NCBI RefSeq assembly: GCF_003052515.2
Contig: NZ_QARE02000017.1
Coordinates: forward strand, 62,001-126,000
Length of the DNA stretch: 64,000 nucleotides
DNA from: Pseudomonas sp. RIT409
Lineage (GTDB): Bacteria > Pseudomonadota > Gammaproteobacteria > Pseudomonadales > Pseudomonadaceae
Reading direction: 5' to 3'
Both the position numbers and the translations under genes were made by a program. The notes below the pieces were generated by a model. It was not told the DNA's origin. It searched no databases and saw only the letters and a list, made by a program, of their open reading frames with translations. Below, piece after piece: positions 1,925 to 10,868 of this stretch; the first letter of the stretch is position 1, and each line of letters begins with the position of its first letter.

Positions 1925-2104
1925 TTAGGCGGCTTCGGGTTTGGTAACGGCTTTGAACTGACCGTTCGTGAGGATCTGCAACTGAAACTGCCGACCTTCC
2001 GGCACTGTTTCGCCCCACATCGTCACCGCGCTGGGGCTGATTCCCAGCGCCTCGGCCAGCTTCGTTTTGCTGCCGAAGTGAGCAGCGACTTCTTTGGTTT
2101 TCAT
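1925..2104 (-). CDS. Cro-type repressor
   Basis: This 59-residue gene reads MKTKEVAAHFGSKTKLAEAL and on through GISPSAVTMWGETVPEGR to a short C-terminal strand rich in Q, F and T. The segment from residue 13 to 35 is a helix-turn-helix of the Cro/CI type, with the GISPSAV turn. Length and layout (HTH plus a small beta C-terminus) are those of phage Cro proteins. A ribosome site GAGGAC lies about eight bases upstream. It is divergent from the repressor gene across a 113-bp operator region and is the first gene of the leftward operon. Confidence 0.85.
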   Translation of the reverse strand: MKTKEVAAHFGSKTKLAEALGISPSAVTMWGETVPEGRQFQLQILTNGQFKAVTKPEAA

Positions 2105-2217: not shown

Positions 2218-2868
2218 ATGGATAGACACCAACGTATTGCCCGCGCCATTGAGTTGAGCGGTAAGAAGAAGGGCGAGATCGCTGCCGCTTGCGGCGTGGC
2301 GAACTCTGCAGTGACGCAATGGATTACTGGCGAGAGCAAAAGCTTGAAGCCCGAAAACCTTTACGCCCTGGCGAAAGCCACTGGTTTTCGTGCCGAGTGG
2401 CTGGCGATTGGCGAAGGCCCCGAGAAGGAACCAGATTCAAACGTCGCGATGACGAATCAGCCGGACATGATGTACCGCTACCCAGTCATTTCTTGGGTTG
2501 CCGCGGGTACTTGGGCTGAGGCAGTCGAACCATACCCGCCTGGGTTCTCCGATCATTACGAGATGTCGGAGTACGCCGCTAAAGGCCCGGCCTTCTGGCT
2601 TGAGGTCAAAGGCGACTCAATGACGTCACCTATTGGTCAGAGCGTCCCCGAGGGCAGTCTGATCCTGGTGGACACCGAAGCGGATGCCTACTCTGGCAAG
2701 CTGGTTATTGCGAAGCTATCGAACAGCGACAAGGCCACGTTCAAGAAGCTGGTGGATGATGGCGGACGGCGTTTCCTGAAGCCGTTGAACCCTGCCTACC
2801 CTATAGAGGCCTGCGAGGATGACTGCCGGATCATTGGTGTTGTGGTGCGAGCACTGATGAAACTTTGA
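2218..2868 (+). CDS. CI/LexA-type prophage repressor (S24 self-cleaving)
   Basis: The 216-residue repressor has an N-terminal helix-turn-helix (residues about 16-42, KKGEIAAACGVANSAVTQWI) and a C-terminal S24 peptidase fold. An Ala-Gly cleavage site is at residues 96-97 (SWVAAGTW). Catalytic Ser134 lies in GDSM and the general-base Lys176 in ATFKKL, so RecA-stimulated autocleavage and SOS induction are expected. No Shine-Dalgarno precedes the ATG at 2218, and the -10 TAATAT ends only seven bases upstream, so the message is probably leaderless, as for lambda cI made from pRM. It keeps the prophage silent by binding the operators at 2136-2192 and probably those at 4394-4430. Confidence 0.95.
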   Translation: MDRHQRIARAIELSGKKKGEIAAACGVANSAVTQWITGESKSLKPENLYALAKATGFRAEWLAIGEGPEKEPDSNVAMTNQPDMMYRYPVISWVAAGTWAEAVEPYPPGFSDHYEMSEYAAKGPAFWLEVKGDSMTSPIGQSVPEGSLILVDTEADAYSGKLVIAKLSNSDKATFKKLVDDGGRRFLKPLNPAYPIEACEDDCRIIGVVVRALMKL

Positions 2869-3976: not shown

Positions 3977-4000
3977 AGCCCGCCACTCGCGGGCTTTTTT
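3977..4000 (+). terminator. Intrinsic terminator
   Basis: GCCCGC (3978-3983) pairs with GCGGGC (3989-3994), loop of five bases, followed by six T. It lies ten bases after the stop of the 67-residue gene. Confidence 0.85.
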
Positions 4001-4017
4001 ATGCCCGCAGTCCGAAA

Positions 4018-4082
4018 GAGTACATTTGTACTCTAAAGCTGTTGCCATTCATTTGGATCCTTTTTACTGTATATTCATACAG
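4018..4082 (+). promoter_or_regulatory. SOS-type control region: LexA box plus a second palindrome
   Basis: CTGTATATTCATACAG at 4067-4082 has the CTG-N10-CAG form and AT-rich core of a gamma-proteobacterial LexA box and ends 21 bases before the next ATG. A perfect 18-bp palindrome, AGAGTACATTTGTACTCT, lies at 4017-4034; its GTAC-N4-GTAC core is close to the GTAC-N4-GTGC site I recall for the second LexA of P. putida. The first site is seen directly; who binds the second is inference. Confidence 0.7.
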
Positions 4083-4103
4083 CAGTAGAAATGGAGGTTC
4101 ACA

Positions 4104-4355
4104 ATGCTTCAGCAGCCCGAGTTCACCCAGGTCAAGTCCCGCACCTACGAGCAAATCGGCCACCGCGTCAAAGAAATCATCAGCGATCCTAAGGTTCAGC
4201 GGGTCCAGTTCGTAACCGTTTCAAGACTGCCCAACGAGGGCAAGTCAGATTGGTGGCGACTGATGAATGAGATCGCCAGCACCCAGGGGATTCGGGTGCA
4301 AAGGCTGGACGAGGATTCGTTCAAGATCGGGTGGAAGGAATACTGCGAAGCGTGA
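4104..4355 (+). CDS. SOS-controlled small protein, resembles DUF1654
   Basis: The 83-residue protein starts after GGAGG with six bases of spacing. The pattern YEQIGHRVKEII at residues 15-26, a central W-x2-LMNEIA stretch and the final D-x-FKIGW resemble the short DUF1654 family of Pseudomonas and its phages; I hold this moderately. A LexA box lies directly upstream and an intrinsic terminator directly downstream, so this is a one-gene unit expected to be derepressed during DNA damage, together with prophage induction. Function unknown. Confidence 0.65.
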   Translation: MLQQPEFTQVKSRTYEQIGHRVKEIISDPKVQRVQFVTVSRLPNEGKSDWWRLMNEIASTQGIRVQRLDEDSFKIGWKEYCEA

Positions 4356-4360
4356 AATGA

Positions 4361-4381
4361 GCCCGCCATGTGCGGGCTTTT
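4361..4381 (+). terminator. Intrinsic terminator
   Basis: GCCCGC (4361-4366) and GCGGGC (4372-4377) with a CATGT loop, followed by TTTT. It insulates the SOS gene from the pL-like promoter that starts 13 bases later. Confidence 0.8.
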
Positions 4382-4393
4382 GCTGCCTGATAA

Positions 4394-4455
4394 TTTCAGC
4401 GTTCTGAAAATAATTATTCAGCATGCTTGACTACGAATTTCAGATTGCTTAAATT
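4394..4455 (+). promoter_or_regulatory. pL-like promoter with operators copied from the immunity region
   Basis: TTGACT (4427-4432) and TAAATT (4450-4455) are separated by exactly 17 bases: a good sigma-70 promoter starting near 4462. Upstream, TTTCAG-N4-CTGAAA at 4394-4409 repeats operator 1 of the immunity region (spacer CGTT instead of CATT). TTCAGCATGCTTGA at 4417-4430 overlaps the -35 box and matches half of operator 2 on the opposite strand. The prophage repressor should therefore shut this promoter off in the lysogen. The promoter is the counterpart of lambda pL, opening the operon that runs toward int. Confidence 0.78.
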
Positions 4456-4984
4456 TCTCACATCGCGGCGATGCACCGCTCCGAACCGCTCTTTAAAAAA
4501 CCGACGTAACCACCGCGACGTACCCATTGGGTCGGGAAAAGCTAAACCGTCGCCCACGCAGCCTCTGGATAGCTGCCGGGCTCGCCACATCGCGAGCACG
4601 CCAAACCGTGCAAGCCACCCGGGAAGAACACCGTCCACGAAATGTGTGACCTGGGCAGAGATATGAATCCGGCGCCGCGCATGGGATGGAACAAACGACA
4701 GAGGAGGAACCTGCCAATGAAGTAGCCAGACCAGCCGGAATACGGACCGGCAACCCACGACGGACTGCCCACCCCCACCGGGCCGCCGAGCTGCAGTTGA
4801 CTGTCGTGTAGCGAATATCTGACCCCATGACCACACCGTGGAAGCCGATCTACGCGGAGTGAACAGGGAAGCTCAAGGCCAAACACACGAAAGCGCGAGG
4901 CCATCGGCGGCGTAGCGCTACAAGGTTTCACTGGCTGGCCTTCGAGGTTGAGGGCCAGACGGGAAATCAACCGGAGAAACCAAG
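4456..4984 (+). ncRNA. Candidate structured RNA 1 / long untranslated leader
   Basis: No credible gene is present on either strand between 4356 and 4984; the open frames here have non-protein composition. The stretch after the promoter is GC-rich and full of short hairpins: GCTCGC/GCGAGC (4580-4597), GCCGG/CCGGC (4734-4751), CACGAC/GTCGTG (4756-4808), and a CTGGCC/GGCCAG stem near the end. A boxA-like CGCTCTTTAAAA lies at 4487-4498, about 25 nt into the transcript. GGAGGA (4703-4708) followed by ATG AAG TAG (4717-4725) forms a two-codon ORF. It shares ordered sequence blocks with the RNA at 5688-6126. The 3' limit is set at the Api92 start; it could be a leader rather than a separate RNA. Confidence 0.55.
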
Positions 4985-5632
4985 ATGCCGAATTGGGTAA
5001 CAAACAAAGTCAGCGCTCCCAAGGAGGTGCTGCAATCGCTGATCAACACAGAGGGGCGAATCGACTTCAACACACTGATCACATTCGCTGGATCATTTCC
5101 TTGGAAGGGGATCGACAGTGCTGCCGAGCAGTGCGCTGAGGTCATCAGCGGCCAACCATTGAACGAACACCCGCTGATCGCATCCCTACAGCAATCAAAT
5201 CGTCAGGGCGCCAACGCGCTGAACCTCAATGACGAGCAGTTTGAGCAGTTTGTGCAGATGCTGCGCAACAAGCGGCTGACCGGGCACTTTCACACCCTGG
5301 ACTTCGCCAATGCCAACTGGGGTACGAAGTGGAACGCCTGTGATCAGGATCCCGATCTTGAATCTGGCACGCTGAAATTCGATACCGCATGGAGCTGTCC
5401 CGAGCCTGTCCTGAAAGCTCTGTCAGCCAAGCATCCCGAAGCAGAAATTTGCGTTGTTTATGCCGATGAAGACATAGGTAGCAACTGCGGAACGCTTAAG
5501 CTCAAGGCGGGCGAATTCGTGTTTCGGGACGAATCGCGGGGCTGGCACAAAATGTCGAAGGACGAACAAGAAAAGTGGCAGGCCTTTGCCTATGAAGTGA
5601 AAGGCTGGGATCCGGAGCCTGACAACGACTGA
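4985..5632 (+). CDS. Api92-like phage protein (ferredoxin-like fold, YubB family)
   Basis: The 215-residue product opens MPNWVTNKVSAP, the hallmark of Api92/YubB-like proteins, and has the second family signature WGTKWNA near residue 115. The C-terminal half (FDTAWSCPEPVLKALSAKHPEAEICVVYADED) is the conserved ferredoxin-like domain. Family members occur on phages and plasmids and have no established function. GGAG lies eight bases before the ATG. It is the first protein gene of the pL-like transcript and is flanked on both sides by related non-coding RNA segments, which suggests a functional link with them. Confidence 0.8.
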   Translation: MPNWVTNKVSAPKEVLQSLINTEGRIDFNTLITFAGSFPWKGIDSAAEQCAEVISGQPLNEHPLIASLQQSNRQGANALNLNDEQFEQFVQMLRNKRLTGHFHTLDFANANWGTKWNACDQDPDLESGTLKFDTAWSCPEPVLKALSAKHPEAEICVVYADEDIGSNCGTLKLKAGEFVFRDESRGWHKMSKDEQEKWQAFAYEVKGWDPEPDND

Positions 5633-5687
5633 ACCATCCTCCTGTGGATTCACAGAGTGCACGGCACCACTTAACCCTCACCCTGAC

Positions 5688-6126
5688 GAGCATTAAGCGC
5701 GGTAATGCTCACCTGTGTGCGCTTTAAAAAACCTCGATGAGGTCGCATCGGAGAGTGACCGAAGCGTGCCCGAGCGGGCTGCAACGGTAGGATCGCAAAG
5801 ACCCGTGAATGTCCTGGGCCGGTGTGTGCAAGACGGCCAACATCAAAAATCCGGCGGGAAACAAGCAGGAGTAGCGACCTGGTGTTTCGATCACTCTCCG
5901 ATGCGGACGAGTCCACACCGCGCAGGCGGCCCCCTGCATCAAACCTGAAGACAGGCCAGCGCCCGCCATCATCCGGCGCGCACCAAGCGGAGGATTTGCA
6001 GCCATGAAATAACACTGCGAGCCCGGACTACCGCCCCACGCGGCTCCGGGATAACTGCCAACGTAGGGGGTAACCTCGTTGAGCCAGTGAGAAAAGAAAA
6101 AGCCCTGCGTCGACAGGGCTTTTTTT
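5688..6126 (+). ncRNA. Candidate structured RNA 2, ending in an intrinsic terminator
   Basis: There is no believable gene from 5633 to 6226. The segment begins with an 8-bp hairpin GAGCATTA/TAATGCTC (5688-5710), then a boxA-like TGCGCTTTAAAA (5718-5729). CGCATCGGAGAGTGA (5744-5758) is perfectly complementary to TCACTCTCCGATGCG (5891-5905), a 15-bp helix closing a domain of about 130 nt. That domain contains GCCC/GGGC (5768-5779) and GGCCG/CGGCC (5817-5838) stems. A second hairpin CCCGGA/TCCGGG (6022-6050) encloses CCGC/GCGG. GGAGGA (5989-5994) precedes ATG AAA TAA (6004-6012). The unit closes with the terminator at 6101-6126. No clear own promoter is seen, so it may be the 3' part of the pL-like transcript. 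Confidence 0.6.
6101..6126 (+). terminator. Intrinsic terminator of candidate RNA 2
   Basis: AGCCCTG (6101-6107) and CAGGGCT (6114-6120) flank a 6-nt loop and run into seven T. Upstream A residues extend the stem. It stands like lambda tL1: 1.6 kb after the pL-like start and before the long run of delayed-early genes, so those genes need either readthrough or their own promoter. Confidence 0.88.
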
Positions 6127-6226
6127 CGCCTCACGTTTATCCGCCAGCACTCTCACCTGCGCCCATCGGCAACAAGCAGGCGGCCAGAGTGCTGACGAAT
6201 GAATGCAACCAACTGAGGGAAAGGAC

Positions 6227-6562
6227 ATGAATCAGACAATTCAGCAAAAGCGCGCCGTCCTCGACGTGCTGCGCCAGCGCGCCAAGCAAGCCACCGCAGA
6301 ATTCAACGCAAAGCCGCGTTTCGTTGTGGTGCCGCATCAAAACAACCTGTTCGGCGTGCTCGACCGCAAGACCGGTGTGGAATGCGCCGAGGTCGCCGGG
6401 CACAACAGCGCGTGCCAGGCCGCGCAGAGCTTCGAAAACGTGGCTGACTTCACCCAGGCCGCCCAGATCAATGTCGGCAACTGCGCACGGCTCATGCTGC
6501 GCTGGATCGCCGTCGTCAGCTTGGTGACTCTCGGCTTCGTCGCCATGGGGTATCAGCCATGA
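6227..6562 (+). CDS. Small phage protein with C-terminal membrane helix (111 aa)
   Basis: I start at the ATG at 6227, preceded by GAGG at eight bases, rather than an in-frame ATG eight codons earlier with no ribosome site. The protein has a charged helical N-terminus, a central region reading RFVVVPHQNNLFGVLDRKTG, and one transmembrane segment near the end (LMLRWIAVVSLVTLGFVAM). The cytoplasmic part looks soluble, so it is a tail-anchored membrane protein. No family recognised. Its stop overlaps the next start as ATGA. Confidence 0.65.
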   Translation: MNQTIQQKRAVLDVLRQRAKQATAEFNAKPRFVVVPHQNNLFGVLDRKTGVECAEVAGHNSACQAAQSFENVADFTQAAQINVGNCARLMLRWIAVVSLVTLGFVAMGYQP

Positions 6563-6873
6563 ACTTCGCTCCTCAAGCTGATCCGCGGCAACAGATCATC
6601 GCTGACCTCAATGCCCAGATCGCGCAATACCTGGCCACCGGCCAACGCGTTCAGAACATCCCGCCGGGCGTAAGCGGTGAGGTGCCTTTCACCGCCATCG
6701 GCAACCATCCCAAGAACCTTAAGCTGCGCCGCGATAAGCATGAGCCTCGCGTGCGTGAGCTGGCAGCCGCGGGCAATACCGCTTCGGCTATCGCTACAGC
6801 GATCGGTATCGACAGCCGGACCGTCCGGCGCATCGCCAAAGAACACGCCATCACCCTGACCGAACCGACCTGA
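6559..6873 (+). CDS. Phage protein with C-terminal helix-turn-helix (104 aa)
   Basis: The start codon overlaps the previous stop (ATGA), indicating translational coupling. The first half is polar and contains QQIIADLNAQIAQYL; the second half (residues about 65-98, VRELAAAGNTASAIATAIGIDSRTVRRIAKEH) reads as a resolvase-like helix-turn-helix. It could be a small DNA-binding regulator of the accessory operon; no specific family is recognised. Confidence 0.6.
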   Translation: MNFAPQADPRQQIIADLNAQIAQYLATGQRVQNIPPGVSGEVPFTAIGNHPKNLKLRRDKHEPRVRELAAAGNTASAIATAIGIDSRTVRRIAKEHAITLTEPT

Positions 6874-10055: not shown

Positions 10056-10868
10056 TTACAATGCATCGCTCTTTAAATCCTCATCTGCTGACTTAGCTTT
10101 TTGAAGAGGATAAGCTCCATCATAGTCTTTACCGGAATATAGCTCCCGAACTTGGTTACAGCAGAACGCGGAATCTTTAAGGCGGGAAGCCAACTTGTAC
10201 CTTCTTATAATTTCCACACTTTTTGGACTTCTGGCGAAAACTATAGCCATGTATATAGTCATCTCATGTTTCATAAATGACTCAAGAGCATAAGTGAAAT
10301 AGAATTCTTTTTTATCATGAGTGAGCGAGGAATTATCTATGAAATAAAGACACTGGGAGAACTTCCTTCCAAAGCTGCCAAGCCGGTCATTATCTGACTC
10401 TATAACCTTCCGGACATGGACACCAGCGTGCGCTAGCCCTTCAGCCCAATCTTGGGTTGAAAGCCGCTCTTTCTCGCTCAGAAGTTTAGACCTGAGCGTT
10501 TTGTTGTAGTTTTCGTTCTTAGCGCCCCTGAATATTGATGCGGCTTGCTTGTCAAACTTATCGACCAGCTTGAAAAAAGTGTTTTCAAATTTCTCAATTT
10601 CGCTCACCTCAATCTGCCGAGCAGAAGCTTCTATTTGAAACCTAAAGGTCTGAAGCAGTACAAGCAACCCTAGAAAACTAAGGATTGGGTTGGTAAGGCC
10701 GCCTACAAAATCCCCGAACTGTCCCCAAGCAGCGGCATCATTTATTTTGTGTGTACCAAACATATCGATATAGCTTTTGAAGACCAAATAGAAAATCAAT
10801 AGCGCTAGGGCAACTACTGCACTTACAAAAAGTGATGCACCCCAGGGCTTCCGATGACCATTCCTCAT
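10056..10868 (-). CDS. PutAbiC-type putative phage abortive infection protein
   Basis: The 270-residue product has a transmembrane helix at residues about 12-32 (SLFVSAVVALALLIFYLVF), the sequence WGQFGDFVGGLTNPILSFLGLLVLLQTF with a second hydrophobic helix, then QIEVSEIEKFENTFFKLVDKF. This order is the signature I know for the putative phage abortive infection family (PutAbiC). The rest is a soluble helical domain. GGAG is eight bases before the ATG. Base composition is clearly more AT-rich than all neighbours and the gene opposes them, marking it as a separately acquired cargo gene (moron) probably expressed in the lysogen to exclude other phages. Confidence 0.8.
   Translation of the reverse strand: MRNGHRKPWGASLFVSAVVALALLIFYLVFKSYIDMFGTHKINDAAAWGQFGDFVGGLTNPILSFLGLLVLLQTFRFQIEASARQIEVSEIEKFENTFFKLVDKFDKQAASIFRGAKNENYNKTLRSKLLSEKERLSTQDWAEGLAHAGVHVRKVIESDNDRLGSFGRKFSQCLYFIDNSSLTHDKKEFYFTYALESFMKHEMTIYMAIVFARSPKSVEIIRRYKLASRLKDSAFCCNQVRELYSGKDYDGAYPLQKAKSADEDLKSDAL

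Follow-up and report, generated by a model that had tools for sequence, protein, structure and literature searches.

In phage lambda, the nut sites serve N-dependent antitermination, and the bar minigenes of the pL transcript combine a strong Shine-Dalgarno (SD) sequence with a two-codon frame in which AUA precedes the stop. The put RNAs of phage HK022 are short, two-hairpin leaders of an early operon that possibly act without a phage protein, and we know of no boxA in them. boxA/boxB nut sites are also present in a group of E. coli phages, as described in PMC11893012. For boxA itself, passages of PMC5725501 give the consensus GYTCTTTAANA and present the action of the rRNA boxA Nus complex against Rho as established.

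Here we examine a locus of Pseudomonas sp. RIT409 in which an Api92-like gene lies between two non-coding stretches, RNA1 in front of it and RNA2 behind it. The original prediction held these to be two related structured RNAs of one pL-like prophage transcript, with the Api92-like gene as a possible partner. A survey of open reading frames, domains and promoters identifies the region as the pL side of a lambdoid prophage. Small genes lie between the CI/S24 repressor gene and the promoter-like site at 4427-4455; the consensus scan finds 2 such sites in 4000-6300, against a shuffled mean of 0.8, and phage leaders carry a pL-like promoter at the same place as here. Positions are those of the window, the whole 64,000-nucleotide stretch of DNA analysed.

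1925-2104, minus strand: Cro-like gene (P22_Cro, E=2.5e-21), immunity region, upstream of RNA1
2218-2868, plus strand: CI/S24 repressor gene (Peptidase_S24, E=2.9e-26), immunity region, upstream of RNA1
4427-4455, plus strand: pL-like promoter, TTGACT, 17 nt, TAAATT (consensus scan)
4484-4690, plus strand: M1, leader RNA with several helices (45-row alignment, compensatory change)
4487-4497, plus strand: boxA CGCTCTTTAAA, matching GYTCTTTAANA, core in common with the host 16S leader
4699-4915, plus strand: M2, minigene module (30-row alignment; 85 family copies)
4701-4725, plus strand: SD (4701-4708) and minigene ATG AAG TAG (4717-4725) of M2 (84 of 85 copies)
4924-4968, plus strand: E3 hairpin, 5' of the first gene (50 copies, covariation; z=-5.31)
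4985-5632, plus strand: Api92-like (DUF1281_C) gene in an exchangeable position (PF18406, E=1e-14)
5745-5767, plus strand: RNA2 stalk, 5' arm (arm-pairing test)
5768-5881, plus strand: RNA2 cargo, aligning with the largest cargo type (A4; 20 other copies)
5882-5904, plus strand: RNA2 stalk, 3' arm (arm-pairing test)
5898-5944, plus strand: RNA2 frame, conserved 3' part (profile match, 48 bits)
5986-6092, plus strand: R2C module, with SD (5989-5994) and minigene ATG AAA TAA (6004-6012) (profile match, 44 bits; 84 related sites)
6097-6126, plus strand: terminator-like hairpin and T run (GCCCTG, loop, CAGGGC, T run; by eye)

The scan reported a terminator-like hairpin at 6124-6097 on the minus strand. 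Our best explanation, to which we give a probability of about one half, is that an early transcript from pL, built of exchangeable RNA modules, begins in this region. In it RNA1 - made up of M1, M2 and E3 - would be a cis leader, headed by boxA, that sustains early transcription, and RNA2 would be a different, cargo-bearing RNA.

Like a lambda nut site, the locus has a boxA soon after an early promoter that flanks the repressor gene, with a terminator downstream. Unlike a nut site, it has no boxB beside the boxA and continues into hundreds of bases of structured RNA; some 22 alignment columns separate boxA from the first covarying helix of M1, and that helix extends over about 65 further columns, which does not fit a boxB. 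No second strict boxA, as expected of a pR-side site, was found in 16 phage records, and the gene behind E3 is exchanged between phages, with no common N-like gene apparent. Because both the boxB and the pR features failed, we do not class RNA1 as a nut site. With the put RNAs it shares the character of a structured leader of an early phage operon; its boxA and its length set it apart from them. An rRNA operon leader likewise combines the boxA core (CCGCTCTTTAA in both) with a long untranslated structured transcript behind it, but here the operon is that of a phage, with a CI-type control region, protein genes and minigenes. We file RNA1 as a new variant of the boxA-type early leader; no counterpart can be named for RNA2. 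In agreement with the original prediction, which knew of no described family, Rfam 15 returned no family at the gathering score for the window and 20 loci (the best weak matches fell under their cut-offs), with no known riboswitch or sRNA family among them, and no description of these RNAs was found in open-licence PubMed Central papers. The modules are thus covariation-supported RNA families not found in Rfam.

The boxA leader, the minigenes and the E3 hairpin

M1 begins with boxA. The 11-nt core of the window's boxA recurs in the 16S leader of its own genome, bearing out the boxA predicted for RNA1, and in the commonest leader form the match to the host 16S leader extends to CCGCTCTTTAACA. 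Of 124 M1 copies, 116 have GCTCTTT 5' of the core (shuffled: 0); a second leader type, unrelated to M1, has the same word 5' of it in 125 of 134 copies (shuffled: 1). This second type (CTCTACCGGCGACCGGCGA core; for example, L005 2024-2157), also boxA-headed, replaces M1 in 158 loci; M1 is present in 203 and the two occur together in 4, so they are close to mutually exclusive. A strict boxA is found once in each of 6 of the 16 phage records, always at the leader and nowhere else in them; seven of the other ten have a variant at the leader and in three none was found. The reversed control pattern gave 2 chance matches in the same 16 records. By eye, boxA stands behind operator-like sequences that differ from one another. 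A second exact GCTCTTTAA occurs in the window at 10068-10076 on the plus strand, outside the RNAs studied.

The structure of M1 is supported by covariation. In the 45-row alignment 97.7% of cells pair, compensatory change is seen at 20 of 38 pairs, and at one position all four Watson-Crick pairs occur. Covariation scores 0.391, where slid partners give 0.035 to 0.067, and none of 500 shuffles attained this score; the number of pair types was reached by 71 of 500. The single-sequence fold of the window's M1 is not unusual (z=+0.42; matched or bettered by 135 of 200 shuffles), so folding energy gives M1 no support.

The most constant part of M2 is its minigene. In 84 of 85 family copies AGGAGG precedes a frame made of a start codon, no more than two sense codons and a stop, whereas other ATGs of the same segments open such a short frame in 1 of 104 cases. 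These copies were chosen by SD plus the word CAGCCG or CAGTCG, which pre-selects the SD and leaves start and stop free; in a wider and noisier count of 120 segments around the M2 anchor, 16 have no SD or start and several segments lie outside the family. The minigenes come in 17 versions, with ATG, TTG or GTG as start and TAA, TAG or TGA as stop. Covariation in M2 is lower, with compensatory change at 5 of 24 predicted pairs (30 rows).

The terminator module, R2C, has a comparable frame. Among 84 sites of the form GGAGGATTTGCA-ATG, the ATG is directly followed by a stop in 49 and by one or two codons in 21, so that 70 end within two sense codons; the remaining 14 run on, some of these outside the family. 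A terminator-like hairpin lies within 260 nt at 53 of the 84. In both modules, then, an SD with a frame of about two codons recalls the lambda bar minigenes, and their conservation is in line with the analogy drawn in the original prediction. They differ from bar in that the sense codons, where there are any, are mostly Lys, His, Gln or Tyr, with ATA in none of the 17 M2 versions, and in being conserved over many phages inside structured modules. The codons of start, sense and stop vary at a constant minimal length, which indicates that a very short translated frame is under selection. For studies of ribosome docking and drop-off, these conserved frames, minigenes and start-stops alike, offer a natural set.

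E3 is a hairpin with compensatory change at 8 of 14 pairs (50 copies). Its covariation score is 0.395, against at most 0.064 for slid partners, and was reached by none of 500 shuffles, the number of compensatory pairs by 7. An SD and an open reading frame follow E3 in 276 of 295 copies, against 321 of 1,475 random positions, the start codon lying a median of 14 nt away; 41 loci have two or three E3 copies. The proteins encoded there are diverse: 243 distinct sequences fall into 102 clusters, 59 of them single. The slot holds CsrA, TerB, alginate lyase and a sigma-factor-like family. E3 provides a sequence handle by which exchangeable early genes can be recognised. Since the Api92 protein forms a cluster of its own, and the gene is exchanged while the RNAs stay, we reject Api92 as their regular partner. 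A clustering of all downstream open reading frames for a common partner chained through spurious frames and carries no weight. Two slot members may be noted in passing: a phage CsrA (PF02599, E=3e-24) at L024 and in 8 further proteins, where the transcript is GGA-rich, and an alginate lyase family gene at L081 (PF08787, E=9.7e-42), from a cluster of 7 proteins.

RNA2, its stalk and its cargo

Are RNA1 and RNA2 related? The words cited in favour of this do sit at the places given for them: the boxA word at 4488/5719, GTGCAAG at 4608/5826, GACCTGG at 4648/5876, TCCGGCGC at 4668/5972, and GGAGGA followed by ATGAARTA near 4703/5989. The local alignment score of the two RNAs was equalled by 43 (strict) and 17 (lenient) of 500 dinucleotide shuffles, and their collinear exact words by 37, 33 and 8 of 300 shuffles (k = 6, 7 and 8). 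Once the SD-minigene and the boxA word are masked, the common blocks are at chance level, with the observed chain equalled by 186 (k=6) and 225 (k=7) of 300 shuffles. As the masked similarity is within the shuffle range, we reject the two as paralogues. Among 18 aligned RNA2 stalk and cargo copies, GTGCAAG occurs in the window only and GACCTGG in two (the window and L134). The boxA claimed for RNA2 also fails: GCGCTTTAA is missing from nine other aligned copies and does not fit the consensus GYTCTTTAANA as given in PMC5725501. What RNA1 and RNA2 have in common for certain is the SD plus a Met-Lys-stop minigene.

RNA2 is a constant frame bearing a stalk with hypervariable, complementary arms. 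Arms can be picked by complementarity, as in our list of 110 copies (kept from 161 stalk candidates; the 51 dropped scored under 12, were shorter than 14 nt, were chance genome matches or were the window itself), and the unbiased test is therefore the one on 104 distinct copies with arms placed by flanking sequence. Here stalk positions 7-16 pair in 948 of 1,040 cases, against a mean of 711 and at most 755 when the 3' arms are re-dealt; with one copy per 5' arm, 386 of 440 pair, against a re-dealt mean of 244 and at most 289. Pairing above the level of re-dealt arms indicates that it is the pairing that has been kept, not the sequence. In the 18-row alignment of stalk and cargo, 98.5% of cells pair, with compensatory change at 6 of 56 pairs, and the RNA2 fold has z=-2.56. 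The 110 copies fall into 38 cargo clusters, and the window's cargo aligns with the largest.

Several candidate identities were rejected. In 13 of the 18 rows a plus-strand frame and a minus-strand frame stay open, but a common frame is broken by a gap of 5 bases that 10 of the 18 carry, which speaks against a coding gene hidden in RNA2; any one frame stays open in at most 13 of the 45 M1 rows and 10 of the 30 M2 rows. A few cargos other than the window's contain words that by eye resemble tRNA D and T arms; at 8 loci the Rfam tRNA model gave no match at E up to 1, and ARAGORN calls no tRNA at the cargos. A hammerhead core, also thought of by eye in the RNA2 frame, has no Rfam match. Two further observations concern this element. 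In phage Medea1 (L003 3478-3555) a tRNA-Met gene lies just 3' of an RNA2-like element. In the window at 5898-5944 (plus strand), GATGC of the 3' stalk arm could pair with a downstream GCATC, a possible alternative fold seen by eye among nearly invariant letters.

The chief rival of the leader reading gives RNA2 a role in trans. The RNAs would then act mainly in trans: the RNA2 stalk, and perhaps M1, would be cut in the way rRNA stalks are, with RNase III as one possible enzyme, freeing stable small RNAs whose targets would be host proteins, RNAs or defence factors, with the frame as a mount and the cargo swapped between phages. The retention of stalk pairing while sequence changes, the number of cargo clusters and the conservation over 200 nt of the window's cargo type (A4) are all what such a role predicts. 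A mere processing stalk, however, has no need of the conserved frame nucleotides outside it, and the tRNA-like look of some cargos was confirmed by neither tool. We regard this explanation as possible, if rather unlikely.

Module order, distribution and proposed function

A search of phage records with the whole region gave 41 records, none covering 80% of it, and the matches differ, falling on the minigene module in some, on the RNA2 stalk in others and on the hairpin in others. RNA1 is matched in 98 of 398 genus genomes (own included) and RNA2 in 87 of 398, the latter figure inflated because many matches cover nothing but the terminator end. In viral contigs, four pattern scans gave at least 120 stretches each and a fifth gave 87, and module profiles built from such copies were mapped on 729 loci, a partly overlapping set picked by pattern or similarity and hence no prevalence sample. 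At 20 bits or more, 561 of these loci have one module or more, and 437 combine at least two kinds. The 561 show 69 module combinations, indicating that modules are exchanged separately; M1, M2 and E3 are also found apart from one another.

Despite this mosaicism the layout is constant. Each of the 561 loci has all its modules on a single strand, and their order is contrary in 1 of 1,354 pairwise comparisons (counting only the first copy of a module and omitting the four M1-TA pairs). From the 5' end this order is pL-like promoter, boxA, leader RNA, minigene module, hairpin and exchangeable gene, followed by the stalk RNA with its exchangeable cargo, a second minigene or start-stop, and the terminator. 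The E3 model matches 77 of 199 genus genomes (own included) and, in the class sample, none of 368 other genomes (of 369, the window's own only), in a sample with few near relatives outside the genus and under strict filters that may lose weak matches. A scan of genome contigs returned mostly chance matches in unrelated phyla, with 11 GTDB loci carrying a module. Many Pseudomonas prophages thus carry related RNAs with compensatory changes, and on this count the original prediction stands: both non-coding stretches of the pL-like transcript are real, structured and conserved, and hold no recognisable protein gene. Early-operon leaders of these phages are annotated as empty or as hypothetical ORFs, though the operons carry exchangeable accessory genes.

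The conservation of the modules points to a function, for which the leader reading suggests the following course. As polymerase leaves pL, the nascent boxA, being of the rRNA-leader type, would presumably attract NusB/S10 along with the remaining Nus factors, and the structured RNA beside it may help to hold the Nus complex. Polymerase would then resist Rho over the long untranslated leader and continue through the operon. The SD-minigene may load ribosomes, which would terminate after no more than one to three codons, and E3 would shape the ribosome site of the first, exchangeable gene. In the RNA2 frame, the long stalk could display or release an interchangeable RNA cargo, ahead of the minigene or start-stop and the terminator. 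We favour this reading because boxA lies soon after the promoter, heads leader types that are unrelated and follows operator-like sequences that differ, with a terminator downstream. Against it we count the lack of a boxB-like hairpin, the strict boxA in only 6 of the 16 records and the M1 z score; to our knowledge, rRNA-type boxA complexes act against Rho and not against hairpin terminators such as that at 6097-6126. It becomes directly testable whether these phages take early transcription past terminators by means of RNA and host Nus factors.

The modules might instead act mainly after transcription, with hairpins and ribosomes parked at minigenes or start-stops stabilising the early mRNA and setting translation of the next gene, and boxA secondary. 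The short distance from E3 to the start codon fits this, as does the minigene being the most constant feature of M2 and the prevalence of ATG directly followed by a stop in R2C. It leaves unexplained, however, both the boxA directly behind the promoter in the two leader types and the elaborate fold of M1, and we consider it improbable. That the modules are DNA-level linkers or hairpins promoting phage recombination, their RNA structure a by-product, would account for the strong mosaicism, but the fixed transcribed strand, the conserved minigenes and the constant promoter and SD spacing indicate RNA, and linkers should keep sequence where the stalk keeps pairing only, so this is very unlikely.

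Extending the leader reading, we tentatively propose a standard early RNA platform of Pseudomonas temperate phages: a boxA-headed transcript whose payloads would be the protein gene of the E3 slot and the RNA cargo of the stalk, with minigenes and start-stops as ribosome docks. The payloads may be changing anti-defence tools and the cargos a large, undescribed set of effector RNAs, a proposal that we regard as possible, if rather unlikely.

Downstream of these modules, the small protein encoded at 6559-6873 (plus strand) has an HTH-like end and an N-terminal match to the SutA RNA-polymerase-binding domain at 25.3 bits, under the cut-off of 29.3. Eight of 18 relatives match the SutA domain at E up to 0.001 (best 5e-8). 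A relative lies within 3.5 kb in 47 of 182 leader loci, and of 92 loci that have one, 91 also contain an RNA module. The protein is a candidate polymerase-binding partner.
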